From NCBI RefSeq assembly GCF_020092905.1, contig NZ_JAGSGB010000001.1, positions 868,001-932,000 of the forward strand: a stretch of DNA of 64,000 nucleotides, written 5' to 3'. The stretch is from Pacificimonas aurantium (GTDB taxonomy: Bacteria; Pseudomonadota; Alphaproteobacteria; Sphingomonadales; Sphingomonadaceae). Made by a program: the position numbers and the translations under genes. Under the pieces are notes generated by a model. That model searched no databases. It had not been told where the DNA came from and worked only from the letters and a program-made list of their open reading frames with translations. Numbering within the stretch: the stretch's first letter is position 1; each line of letters opens with the position of its first letter. Positions 7,352 to 11,200 of the stretch are shown piece after piece.

Positions 7352-7969
7352 TCAGTCCGCAAGCCGAGTGCGACGATGGCGCGCCAAGACCGCATCACCC
7401 CGCCGGGCGTCATCACCGGCGATCCTTTCCGTTTCCCGGCGCAGGTCGCCGATCATTTCATCGCCAGCAACCTCTTTCCAGTTCACCACTATGAGAACGC
7501 TATCCGCCTCTTTCCCACGTTCCGATAGGGGCAGCAGGACGCCGCGGTAGAGTAGCCGGCCGCCTTGATCAGTATCTATCTCTTCCTCGACATCGACGGG
7601 ATGGGGGAATGATGGAGGGGGCGGGCAGGCGGAGAGCAGCCGGACGACGAGGCACTCCTCGGGAAGCTTCGTGACATCCAGTTCCCCGTGGGGAAGACGG
7701 CCCTGTTCGCGCAGGCGTGCGCCCACATATTCTATGCGGACCTTGCCGGTTTCCGCCGCTCGTTGGATCAGACAGGCATTTTCGGCGATGTCCGCATTCG
7801 GCCAGGGGGCCAGATCTGCAAGGGCAGGCGCGACCTTTGACCCCCGCGCCTGCTCCCAGTACCGGCGTGCGCGGACATGCATGCGCCGCTCGCGCTCCTC
7901 CCGGAATTGCGGCGGTGCGTCGAAGTCGGGTTCGAGATCCAGGAAGGTCCTGCCTCGCACGCTATTCAT
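7352..7969 (-). CDS. PAS-domain-like protein (PAS_5 / DUF1457 type)
   Basis: A 205-residue protein read from an ATG at 7969 preceded by GGAGG at good spacing. The segment RRYWEQARGSKVAPALADLAPW resembles the start of the alphaproteobacterial PAS_5 family (PF07310), a single PAS-like fold of unknown ligand; the later segment LLYRGVLLPLSERGKEADSVL fits the final strands of such a domain. There is no output domain, no membrane segment and no signal peptide, so it is probably a soluble sensor or adaptor. It lies 56 bases upstream of the glutamate dehydrogenase gene on the same strand. The family call comes from pattern memory only. Confidence 0.65.
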   Translation of the reverse strand: MNSVRGRTFLDLEPDFDAPPQFREERERRMHVRARRYWEQARGSKVAPALADLAPWPNADIAENACLIQRAAETGKVRIEYVGARLREQGRLPHGELDVTKLPEECLVVRLLSACPPPPSFPHPVDVEEEIDTDQGGRLLYRGVLLPLSERGKEADSVLIVVNWKEVAGDEMIGDLRRETERIAGDDARRGDAVLARHRRTRLAD

Positions 7970-8141
7970 GACCCTCCGATCTGTCCGCCTTTTCCGACCC
8001 GTCTGGCAGAGGGGAGTTGATGGAGCGTTAAGCGCGCGTGGGAGCTGAGCGAGCGTCTTGCGAAGCCAGTGCGCTTTTGATAGGGGCGCGCCTTCCCACG
8101 GTGGAAGCGTCTCTCAAGATAGAGGTCGCAGCGTCGGGTTT

Positions 8142-8217
8142 GCCGCTTTAGCTCAGTTGGTAGAGCACATCATTCGTAATGATGGGGTCAGGTGTTCGAG
8201 TCACCTAAGCGGCACCA
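8142..8217 (+). tRNA. tRNA-Thr (anticodon CGT)
   Basis: 76 bases including an encoded CCA. The acceptor stem pairs GCCGCTT with AAGCGGC, the D arm is TAGCTCAGTTGGTAGAGC, the anticodon arm pairs CATCA with TGATG around TTCGTAA (anticodon CGT), and the T arm contains GTTCGAGTC. All arms are intact. Confidence 0.97.
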
Positions 8218-8334
8218 CCCGCCCTTCAGACCCGCCTTCATACTCTTCCCGAATCTTTCCCGAAGCCGACGCTATGCCCCTGTCCGTTTATCCGGGGCCA
8301 GCCTGCGAGCACCGGTCCTTTTGGCATCGGCCTC

Positions 8335-8367
8335 AAAAAGAAAAGGGGCCCGATCGGACCCCTTTTC
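8335..8367 (-). terminator. Rho-independent terminator of the first poly-Asp small-protein gene
   Basis: On the minus strand, AAAAGGGGTCC, a GATC loop and GGGCCCCTTTT form an 11-pair stem with one G-T pair, followed by CTTTTT. It begins about 20 bases after the stop codon at 8388. Confidence 0.85.
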
Positions 8368-8387
8368 AGTTGATATGTCGGCTCAGG

Positions 8388-8570
8388 TCAGCCGTTCGAC
8401 ACAGCATCATCGTCGTCATCATCATCGTCGGTTACGGCGATCACGCCGCCGATAACGCCCGCAATGGCAACAACGCCCACGATAACGGGCGCTACCGCCG
8501 AGCGGGCCGGAGCCGTCGTAACGGCTGCCATGGACAGGGCGGCCGTCAGAGCCAGAATAAGTTTAGTCAT
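8388..8570 (-). CDS. Small membrane or exported protein with poly-Asp tail (copy A)
   Basis: A 60-residue protein from the ATG at 8570. A short basic N-terminus (MTK) and a hydrophobic segment with an ALA-type stretch are followed by TAPARSAVAP, a second Gly/Val/Ile-rich hydrophobic segment, eight consecutive aspartates and the end AVSNG. The gene ends at a strong terminator. Copy B at 8935-9120 shares most of the second half at protein and DNA level, so the two are tandem paralogs. The layout suggests either a cleaved signal peptide plus a membrane anchor, or two membrane segments with an acidic tail. The function is unknown. Confidence is raised by the duplication and the two terminators. 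Confidence 0.7.
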   Translation of the reverse strand: MTKLILALTAALSMAAVTTAPARSAVAPVIVGVVAIAGVIGGVIAVTDDDDDDDDAVSNG

Positions 8571-8881
8571 ATACTCAGTCCCAAAGGTTTGCCCCCTCGC
8601 CAAGGCTAGCACAGCCAAGGTTTACAGCTGATTAACAAGGTAAGGAGCCGGCGGTTCCGTGGCGGAATGAAAAAATTGCGAGGCCCCTTTCTCTAGAAGG
8701 CTCTCGCAGGTCTTGCCTTTGCGACGAAATCTCATTCTTATTATTGTCACCCAGCATGATTGCGGCGGTGATGTCCGGGGGCGCCGCTACGGCGGCCACC
8801 AGTGTCGTGGCCGATGCTGGGCGAGCGATTCGGGTGCGAAGGCGCGACAATGGAGAGGATCGCGCGCTGAGTTTATCTCGG
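8571..8881. other. Intergenic stretch between the two paralogous small genes
   Basis: Just over 300 bases with no gene I can support. A plus-strand frame around 8758-8930 would encode an Ala/Gly-rich peptide (SMIAAVMSGGAATAATS) but has no ribosome binding site and runs through the terminator of copy B. The upstream regions of copies A and B are not obviously alike, so the two promoters appear to differ. Confidence 0.5.
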
Positions 8882-8882
8882 C

Positions 8883-8910
8883 AAAAGAAAAGGGCCCCGG
8901 ACGGGGCCCC
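8883..8910 (-). terminator. Rho-independent terminator of the second poly-Asp small-protein gene
   Basis: On the minus strand GGGCCCC, a GTCC loop and GGGGCCC are followed by TTTTCTTTT. It lies about 25 bases beyond the stop codon of copy B at 8935. Confidence 0.85.
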
Positions 8911-8934
8911 ATCGAACAGTCATTTTCTCAGCGT

Positions 8935-9120
8935 TTAGCCGTTGGAGACGGCGTCGTCGTCATCGTCATCATTATTGTCGGTTACGGCGATCACGCCGCC
9001 GACCACGCCAGCGACGGCAATAACGCCGACGATGATGGGCGCTACCGCCGAGCGGGCCGGAGCCGTCGTCACGGCTGCCATGGTCAAAGCGGCCACAAGC
9101 GCGCCAGTCAGTTTCAGCAT
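8935..9120 (-). CDS. Small membrane or exported protein with poly-Asp tail (copy B)
   Basis: A 61-residue paralog of the gene at 8388-8570. The start is the ATG at 9120, because GGAGGG lies 4 bases upstream; an ATG 12 bases further upstream would overlap that binding site. The protein has a basic start (MLKL), a hydrophobic Ala-rich segment, the shared TAPARSAVAP stretch, a Gly/Ile/Val segment, the tail TDNNDDDDDD and the identical end AVSNG. The conserved N-terminal half, acidic run and last five residues argue that both copies are under selection. No known family is recognised. Confidence 0.72.
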   Translation of the reverse strand: MLKLTGALVAALTMAAVTTAPARSAVAPIIVGVIAVAGVVGGVIAVTDNNDDDDDDAVSNG

Positions 9121-9352
9121 TAAACCCTCCAAAGAAAACTGTCGCCGTGGAGCCCTCGTCGCTCCCGACTGGGCGTGGCCATAACATGAGATTTATTACA
9201 TTTCCAAGACCCGTAGGCCTGACAAATTCTTAAGGGGCAATCGCCTCTCGGGGAAATGAGGAAAAAGGGAAATGATACCAGAGGCTTGTGCAGGAAATCC
9301 TTCGAGGTAAAAAGTTAGGCTACCGCGAAGAAAGATGCGCGGCCGCCCCGAA

Positions 9353-11200
9353 TCATTCCCCGGGGAGGCGCCGAACCGCCCCTTGGGACGCATTTGACGC
9401 CATGAGGGCATATGCCCTGAGCGCACGTGAAACCTCCCGTTTGCGGCCCTTCGGCGTATAGGCACGGTCTCCACGTTCTTCCTGCGCAGCCTTGCGACGG
9501 GCGAGTTCTTCGGCGTCCACGAGAAGCTCGATCGTCCGCCCGGGAATGTCGATATCGATCGGATCGCCATGTTCGACGAGCGCAATCAGGCCGCCCTCGG
9601 CCGCTTCGGGGGAGACGTGACCGATAGAAAGCCCCGACGTGCCACCGGAAAACCGGCCGTCGGTTACAAGCGCGCAGGCTGCGCCGAGCCCCTTCGCCTT
9701 CAGATATGAGGTAGGGTAGAGCATTTCCTGCATGCCGGGACCCCCGCGGGGGCCTTCATAGCGGATAATGACGACGTCGCCTTCCACGACTTCGCCGCCT
9801 AGGATCCCGGCGACGGCTGCGTCCTGACTCTCGTAGACACGTGCCTTGCCCGAAAAGGTGAGGATGCTGTCGTCGACGCCGGCGGTCTTCACGATACATC
9901 CCTCCGGCGCGAGATTTCCGAACAGGACAGCCAGACCGCCATCCTGCGAATAGGCATGAGCCTGGTCCCGGATCACGCCGCCCTCGCGGTCGATATCGAG
10001 TTCTTCCCACCGACGGTCCTGACTGAATGCAGTCTGCGTCGGGACCCCTCCGGGCGCCGCGCGGTAGAACCGCACCACGTCGGGACTTTCGGTCTGCATG
10101 ACGTCCCACTCCGCCAGCGCGGCCTTCATGGTGGGGGCGTGCACGGTCGGAACCTCATCCTGCAGCAGGCCGGCGCGCTGCAGCTCGCCTAGGATCGCCA
10201 TAACGCCGCCGGCGCGGTGCACATCCTCCATGTGAACATCTCCCCGAGCGGGGGCTACCTTCGACAGACACGGCACGCGGCGGGACAGCCGGTCGATATC
10301 GGAAATATCGAAGTCGATCTCTCCTTCGCGGGCGGCCGCCAGGAGATGAAGCACGGTGTTGGTCGAGCCCCCCATGGCGATATCGAGCGACATCGCGTTT
10401 TCGAACGCGGTGCGGCTGGCGACCTGGCGCGGCAGGACGCTCTCGTCCTCGCGCTCATAGTGCCGGCGCGCCACATCGACGATCAGACGGCCCGCACGCC
10501 GGAACAGCGCCTCGCGGTCAGAATGTGTCGCGAGCACCGAGCCGTTGCCGGGAAGGGACAGGCCCAGCGCCTCCGTCAGGCAGTTCATGCTGTTGGCGGT
10601 GAACATTCCCGAGCAGCTGCCGCAGGTCGGGCAGGCCGAACGCTCGATGGTCTGTACTTCCTCGTCGGTGCGGCTGTCGTCGGCTGCCGCGACCATGGCA
10701 TCAACGAGGTCGAGCGCCTGTGCGCGGCCATCCGCCCACACCACCTTGCCGGCCTCCATCGGCCCGCCGGAGACGAAGACGGCCGGAATGTTGAGACGCA
10801 TGGCCGCCATCAGCATGCCGGGCGTGATCTTGTCGCAATTGGAAATGCAGACGAGCGCGTCTGCGCAGTGGGCATTCGCCATATATTCGACGGCGTCGGC
10901 GATGAGTTCCCGGCTCGGCAGAGAATAGAGCATGCCGGCGTGACCCATGGCGATGCCGTCGTCGACAGCAATGGTATTGAATTCCCGGCCGACACCGCCC
11001 GCCTCAGCGATCTCCTCGCAAACGAGCTGGCCGAGATCCTTCAGGTGAACATGTCCCGGGACGAACTGGGTGAAGCTGTTGGCAACGGCGATGATGGGCT
11101 TGCCGAAATCCTCTTCGGCCATGCCTGTGGCGCGCCACAGGCCGCGCGCACCAGCCATGTTGCGGCCATGAGTGGTCGTGCGGGAGCGATAGGCGGGCAT
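9353..11200 (-). CDS. ilvD: Dihydroxy-acid dehydratase
   Basis: A 615-residue enzyme that dehydrates 2,3-dihydroxy-3-methylbutanoate and its ethyl homologue in valine, leucine and isoleucine synthesis. The start is set at 11200 because [20 protein letters not shown] aligns with the usual IlvD N-terminus; the open frame runs 48 codons further upstream without similarity. Iron-sulfur cluster cysteines are seen in [11 protein letters not shown] and [11 protein letters not shown], and the C-terminal swivel domain contains [16 protein letters not shown]. The length matches the E. coli enzyme. It stands alone on the minus strand, divergent from the flavin monooxygenase operon. Confidence 0.97.

Follow-up and report, generated by a model that had tools for sequence, protein, structure and literature searches.

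Tandem genes for small acidic-tailed membrane peptides in Pacificimonas aurantium belong to a widespread and apparently undescribed sphingomonad family

RESULTS

Two paralogous genes between a tRNA gene and ilvD

The window, by which we mean the whole stretch of 64,000 nucleotides of Pacificimonas aurantium DNA that was analysed, contains two small genes in tandem, here called A and B (Table 1). A previous sequence-only reading had described their products, of 60 and 61 residues, as paralogs that share the segment TAPARSAVAP, an acidic run and the C-terminal end AVSNG. The open reading frames and their translations agree with this description, and the two proteins are 83% identical. Judged by eye, both start with a signal peptide. 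For protein B, AlphaFold2 predicted two helices (residues 4-14 and 27-48) followed by a loose tail, at a low pLDDT of 64.7. No PDB entry matched this low-confidence model at E<=10 in a Foldseek search.

Table 1. Positions of the features of the gene pair within the window
Feature	Position	Strand	Description and basis
Gene A	8388..8570 (including stop)	minus	ORF list: 60 aa; signal peptide, hydrophobic helix, eight Asp, AVSNG
A, hydrophobic segment	8430..8486	minus	residues 29-47; mean Kyte-Doolittle 2.66
A, acidic run and AVSNG end	8391..8429	minus	translation, codon comparison, Ser count in the family
EcfG-type promoter match GGAAC-N17-GTT	8634..8658	minus	perfect match; starts 88 bases before the ATG of A
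Terminator-like hairpin behind A	8340..8367	minus	12 pairs; 68-nt fold, z -2.95; T-run
Gene B	8935..9120	minus	ORF list: 61 aa; plan as in A, D-N-N and six Asp, AVSNG
B, hydrophobic segment	8980..9036	minus	residues 29-47; mean Kyte-Doolittle 2.66; within the AlphaFold2 helix
B, acidic run and AVSNG end	8938..8979	minus	translation, codon comparison, Ser count in the family
Terminator-like hairpin behind B	8891..8910	minus	8 pairs; 69-nt fold, z only -1.37; T-run

The pair is flanked by a tRNA-Thr gene (8142-8217, plus strand) on one side and by ilvD on the other. Comparison of positions 7352-9353 with three other genomes of the genus (L159, L160 and L161) showed that the tRNA-Thr gene and the gene preceding it, which has no Pfam match, are kept in all four genomes. 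Inspection by eye showed that the genes after the tRNA differ from genome to genome and that the A/B pair and ilvD are found there only in the window genome, so that the pair occupies a variable spot. Of four genomes of the genus that were searched for ilvD itself, two (G005 and G099) gave no match at E<=1e-100. The tRNA-Thr gene was considered as an integration site and rejected, the 3′ end of the tRNA having no second copy in the window. No convincing third copy of A or B was found in the window genome at E<=10.

A strong terminator had been assigned to each gene. This assignment holds better for A, behind which a strong hairpin is located, than for B, whose hairpin is only moderately above shuffled sequences. 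A scan for terminator-like hairpins found 2 sites, against a shuffle mean of 1.8. The DNA between the genes had been described as not duplicated. Similarity of A and B at the DNA level (8382-8544 against 8927-9094) covers the genes and a few bases past the stop, and over the 250 bases upstream of each gene it does not rise above background, as had been claimed. The exception is a 17-base match with one mismatch in the terminator regions (8336-8352 and 8883-8899), at equal distance from both stops, which is either a remnant of the duplication or shared by function. Within the genes, a stretch of 45 bases (8487-8531, ATGGCAGCCGT to GCGCCC) carries a single difference between A and B, and the remainder is far more divergent. 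This stretch represents either a gene-conversion tract or a constrained sequence.

The coding sequences were compared codon by codon, a check that the sequence-only reading had proposed. The comparison of A with B gave a dS of 0.556 and a dN of 0.109, and thus a dN/dS of 0.196. Relatives showed a median dN/dS of 0.17 over 134 pairs that are not independent of each other. The Asp codons of the tails mix GAT and GAC, and within AVSNG three codons out of five show a silent difference between the genes, so that the tail is not a recent triplet expansion. Together with a dN/dS of about 0.2, the differing codons within AVSNG indicate that selection acts on the protein. On this codon evidence, A and B are real genes under selection whose differences are mostly silent. 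The earlier interpretation is supported in so far as the products are paralogous peptides, exported and membrane-bound by their sequence, whose acidic tail is under selection.

A large family with a conserved serine near the C-terminus

Neither Pfam nor NCBIfam contains a model that fits A or B, and literature searches within the limited open literature returned no description of the family, in line with the earlier remark that such a pair had not been described. Searches with single proteins were nearly blank. With B as query, no relative was found in a scan of genome contigs and only 8 of 298 genomes matched in the search of the window's taxonomic family, so that the peptide family becomes visible only with a profile. 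A 7-row profile gave matches in 169 of these 298 genomes (E<=0.1), and a 49-row profile (E<=0.01) in 91 of 196 genomes of the order and in 249 of 295 genomes of one genus. The homologs on which the sequence-only reading had depended are thus present in relatives. The 49-row profile scores A at 2.2e-7 and B at 1.3e-5, both proteins being among its own rows. Named loci with members come from Erythrobacter, Pontixanthobacter, Parerythrobacter, Blastomonas, Sphingorhabdus and Sphingomonas. A and B therefore belong to a large sphingomonad family that is apparently undescribed.

Class-wide, the same profile at E<=0.01 matched 13 of 385 genomes, four from the window's own family, including the window genome, and nine outside it with weak matches. 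Ten matches outside the family were read individually. The two of genome G572 show the full plan, in the one of G546 a longer end follows the helix and the Asp run, and the others are seemingly unrelated. The two copies in G572 (L172 and L173), which belongs to another alphaproteobacterial family, carry the tail DDDSESD. A plasmid search with one relative as query gave no match.

The common plan of the family consists of a signal peptide, a linker, a helix rich in Gly, Ala and Ile, an acidic run and a Ser near the C-terminus, and both A and B conform to it. In 222 of 233 members the Ser is the penultimate residue, in 10 it is third from the end, and one member lacks it. Members were picked by requiring a hydrophobic stretch and an acidic tail, the Ser not being a criterion. 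Three of 145 rows (L005, L059 and L216), all of them without the Ser, were dropped as non-members, so that the Ser at the second- or third-last position amounts to 232/233 after this step and 232/236 before it. Elsewhere in the members, Ser makes up about 9% of residues. Thr does not occur at the second-last position in any of the 233 members. This absence of Thr in place of Ser fits a specific role of the Ser, without amounting to proof of a modification. The last residue is more variable (Asn 96, Pro 91, Ala 17, Gly 10 and Val 6 among the 233 members) and is Gly in A and B.

The sequence-only reading had suggested that the acidic run could bind cations, act as a DNA mimic or be a sorting tail. 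All 233 members carry 3 to 8 Asp or Glu in their last 14 residues, a count to be read with the acidic tail being partly a picking criterion, and this is consistent with peptides that buffer cations or bind metals at the membrane. However, such a role gives no account of a Ser that is kept near the C-terminus while the number of Asp residues varies, and we regard it as improbable. A DNA mimic or a protein sorting tail is very improbable. Both ideas draw on the acidic run, and we found no evidence in favour of the former; known DNA mimics are longer than such tails. With regard to sorting, 20 stretches were fetched, of which 16 had matches in long frames and were inspected: the clear members among these are small genes with upstream read-through and not large proteins bearing the tail. 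Three larger exported proteins from other families of the order (L211, L212 and L213) show a looser resemblance, with a hydrophobic helix and a stretch of Asp residues at the C-terminus. The family resembles PEP-CTERM and LPXTG sorting signals in having a hydrophobic helix near the C-terminus. Those signals carry a basic cluster after the helix, whereas the cluster of A and B is acidic and the mature proteins contain little beyond helix and tail. The members were picked with at most one Lys or Arg in the last 16 residues, and their number is therefore no test of a basic cluster.

The arrangement of the window pair is not unique. At least two members lie within 1.5 kb of each other in 22 of 116 loci, including the window, a count made before the three rows were dropped; in L072, a genome of the window's own genus, they are located on opposite strands. 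Tandem members of two helix types, distinguished by eye, recur across genera (L063, L089, L104, L105, L116 and L214), which hints at a heteromeric pair. No clear helical periodicity of small residues was seen. Since several loci elsewhere pair a member with an AAAAVIAGII-type helix with one of a different helix (by eye), the 83% identical pair of the window looks like a more recent duplicate of an arrangement that occurs repeatedly.

An EcfG-type promoter motif upstream of A and of other members

The motif GGAAC-N17-GTT was first spotted upstream of A, and spaced word pairs were then searched upstream of 49 family members. In this search it ranked first by count and second by ratio (8/49 members against 2/307). 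In a pool of 127 non-redundant members, which includes these 49, the motif was found upstream of 19, compared to 5 of 1106 control upstreams and none on the reverse strand. A held-out set gave a similar picture, with 11 of 83 members against 1 of 287 controls and one match on the reverse strand, and random regions provided a background of 4 in 977 ORF upstreams. Combining the two sets, 30 of 210 members carry the exact motif and 180 do not. With the looser end [AG]TT, no excess was observed at spacings of 15, 16, 19 and 21 and a slight one at 13 and 18 (3/127 against 3/1106 each). In the held-out set, spacing 18 gave 4/83 against 1/287. Upstream of B, the motif is lacking, and the best site has two mismatches at spacing 18. 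The motif is not in excess in the window (one match against a chance mean of 1.28) or in the window genome (56 matches against 72 for a reversed control pattern), so that the assignment of the site of A rests on the enrichment in the family.

The motif agrees with the EcfG motif of Sphingomonas melonis, GGAAC-N17-20-GTT (PMC6599016). Motif and spacing of the EcfG (PhyR-NepR-EcfG) regulon of Alphaproteobacteria are thus present upstream of A and, in total, of 30 of the 210 members, whereas B and the remaining members are without the exact motif. The window genome contains two adjoining matches over the cut-off to PhyR_sigma2 (PF22029), with PhyR at 1.7e-28; by eye, one of the ORFs is PhyR-like and the other ECF-sigma-like. 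The NepR model (PF18557) gave no match at E<=0.001, and a NepR-like stretch was seen by eye before the sigma factor. In this region of the window genome (L219 1303-2052, C1 near 1377200), the EcfG-like sigma ORF carries the NepR-like stretch in frame at its N-terminus, as if fused (by eye). Taken together, a stress promoter on A is likely, judging by the motif.

For 15 of the 50 genes of table 1 in PMC6599016, the motif sequences were sought in the fetched loci with <=4 mismatches. One hit with 4 mismatches was obtained (L164), and none of the 15 was found in the newly fetched loci.

Phosphatase, protease and nucleotide-sugar genes near relatives

Many Erythrobacter-type members share a single conserved housekeeping block, which also contains an amidohydrolase gene and tatC (62/114 loci) and mostly lacks phosphatase and protease genes, and this placement says little on function. 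A role as leader peptide for tatC was ruled out by L056, in which the member and tatC are convergent. To survey neighbours, 72 chosen proteins (68 of 131 listed and four added from L066 and L100) were scanned with Pfam. The recurring families included calcineurin-like phosphoesterases, M48 peptidases and UDP-sugar dehydrogenases, with three proteins each; the first and the last of these counts are raised by the hand-added proteins, which supply one of the phosphoesterases and two of the dehydrogenases. Among NCBIfam models, those closest to the phosphatase are ApaH/PrpE, a polynucleotide kinase-phosphatase and protein Ser/Thr phosphatases. The protease came closest to BepA in the cases that gave a reasonable match, and all of these scores are far below the cut-offs. 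Among five proteases scanned, M48 exceeded the Pfam cut-off in all and PDZ in two (L078 and L170). By eye, no signal peptide was seen in the phosphatase, and one is present in the protease of L136 and L170.

Among 109 held-out loci of one genus, a phosphatase gene was found in 72, a protease gene in 15 and both in 10. As a control, 40 random 20-kb stretches, of which few come from that genus, contained neither gene. The partner queries were taken from family loci, and the 109 loci are the best-scoring matches of their genus. In the 139 older member loci, overlapping ones included, the phosphatase was found in only 5 (L066, L072, L078, L136 and L173) and the protease in 9, which correspond to 7 distinct places. 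L136 is a Sphingomonas, and L173, the locus of the other alphaproteobacterial family with a tail ending in ESD, has both phosphatase and M48-PDZ genes nearby. M48 matches to the first 300 residues of a long ORF in L072 are antisense shadows of the phosphatase gene and were excluded from the counts. The phosphatase gene lies upstream on the same strand for 61 member genes and downstream on the opposite strand for 10, and the protease gene is found in three arrangements relative to members. That these partners are kept together across genera and yet are rearranged suggests a functional connection, to the extent that the choice of queries and loci allows. The A/B pair in the window has neither a phosphatase nor an M48-PDZ protease as neighbour.

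These neighbours bear on the side of the membrane on which the tail lies. From a signal peptide that is cleaved and a strongly hydrophobic stop-transfer helix after it, a cytoplasmic tail is predicted, and this would fit the cytoplasmic phosphatase as a partner. On the other hand, an acidic tail on the cytoplasmic side contradicts the positive-inside rule. If the tail were periplasmic, the M48 protease encoded nearby could recognise the C-terminus through its PDZ-like domain, as a ligand or as a tag for degradation, much as DegS recognises misfolded porin ends. The position of the protease beside members in 15 of the new loci and in 7 other places in several orientations, its domain order of PDZ followed by M48 and the conserved C-terminal Ser are consistent with this idea. 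However, classical PDZ ligands (class I/II) end in a hydrophobic residue, whereas most members end in Asn or Pro and A and B in Gly. Moreover, PDZ was under the cut-off in three of the five proteases, and the prediction of a cytoplasmic tail speaks against it as well. We consider such a PDZ ligand unlikely.

The sugar genes raise a further alternative, in which the peptides are accessories of surface polysaccharide export or attachment, similar to GfcA/YjbE, and the tail Ser is a site of attachment or docking. Of 31 distinct non-housekeeping contexts, 5 have nucleotide-sugar genes within 3.5 kb of a member, as does 1 of 2 housekeeping contexts, compared to 0 of 80 random pieces, and a sugar transferase and a nucleotidyl transferase are among the neighbours. 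This association is weaker than that with the phosphatase and protease genes; the category was picked post hoc after viewing the loci, and the query proteins came from the same loci. According to PMC6599016, the top EcfG-dependent genes of S. melonis include glycosyltransferases and an exopolysaccharide protein, which would fit this alternative. The GfcA/YjbE small proteins are described, in PMC8592465, as short and as inner-membrane or secreted, and the likeness lies in short proteins of polysaccharide operons and in some relatives of A and B being near nucleotide-sugar genes. In the same source, GfcA is Thr-rich (30%) with an undefined role. It belongs to a gfcABCD operon, whereas the A/B family is rich in Asp, has a fixed end with Ser and contains only 2.8% Thr outside signal peptide and tail, and is thus not Thr-rich. 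No gfcBCD-type genes were found among the 25 of 90 neighbour families listed or among the six window neighbours scanned, and the latter include no nucleotide-sugar genes either. A role in polysaccharide export or attachment also appears unlikely to us.

DISCUSSION

Our preferred reading, which we hold tentatively and at somewhat less than even confidence, is that A and B are tandem duplicates of sphingomonad-wide, Sec-exported single-helix membrane peptides that act in the general or envelope stress response and use the acidic Ser tail as a handle for a partner. Stress signalling or docking is suggested by the EcfG-type promoter on A and by the phosphatase and PDZ-protease genes next to some relatives. 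According to this reading, the signal peptide would be cleaved and the Gly/Ala/Ile helix of 19-20 residues retained in the inner membrane. The handle for a partner to bind or modify would be the acidic tail, in which the Ser is nearly invariant (x-Ser-[Asn/Pro], or x-Ser-x-Gly in A and B). The likeliest partners would be the PPP-type phosphatase, predicted to be cytoplasmic, and the exported M48 protease with a PDZ-like domain, both of them neighbours of some members elsewhere. A tail pointing inward would meet the phosphatase, and a tail pointing outward the protease. Gene A would be activated by EcfG, the general stress sigma factor, a control that we infer from the promoter motif, and gene B would use another promoter. 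With separate promoters, the duplicates would supply one protein in two forms, of which one is induced by stress. Overall, the interpretation given in the sequence-only reading is partly supported.

The family can be compared to EMRE, a subunit of the mitochondrial calcium uniporter, since EMRE as well as A, B and their relatives are small one-helix membrane proteins with a C-terminal poly-Asp tail. Unlike the family, EMRE presumably carries neither a bacterial signal peptide nor a Ser-ending motif, and the likeness may be taken as an analogy of working, not of kinship. As described in PMC7442490, the poly-Asp tail of EMRE docks to basic residues of MICU1.

One specific form of the stress-response reading would be a transmembrane phospho-switch. 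In this form, the Ser of a cytoplasmic tail would be phosphorylated, and dephosphorylated by the PPP-type phosphatase, while the M48-PDZ protease would read or remove the other end of the peptide and EcfG would set the dose. The PrpA/PrpB phosphatases of E. coli have a tie to htrA. We regard the phospho-switch as quite unlikely. If true, it would represent a novel type of relay, in which a small peptide acts across the inner membrane.

In S. melonis, approximately 40% of the EcfG-dependent genes are without an assignable specific function (PMC6599016). The peptides described here are a candidate family for part of these genes, with no member matched to that list so far. Although present in 249 of the 295 genomes of one genus, the family has neither a Pfam nor an NCBIfam model, and it brings together a general stress sigma factor, a near-universal C-terminal Ser and phosphatase and PDZ-protease neighbours.
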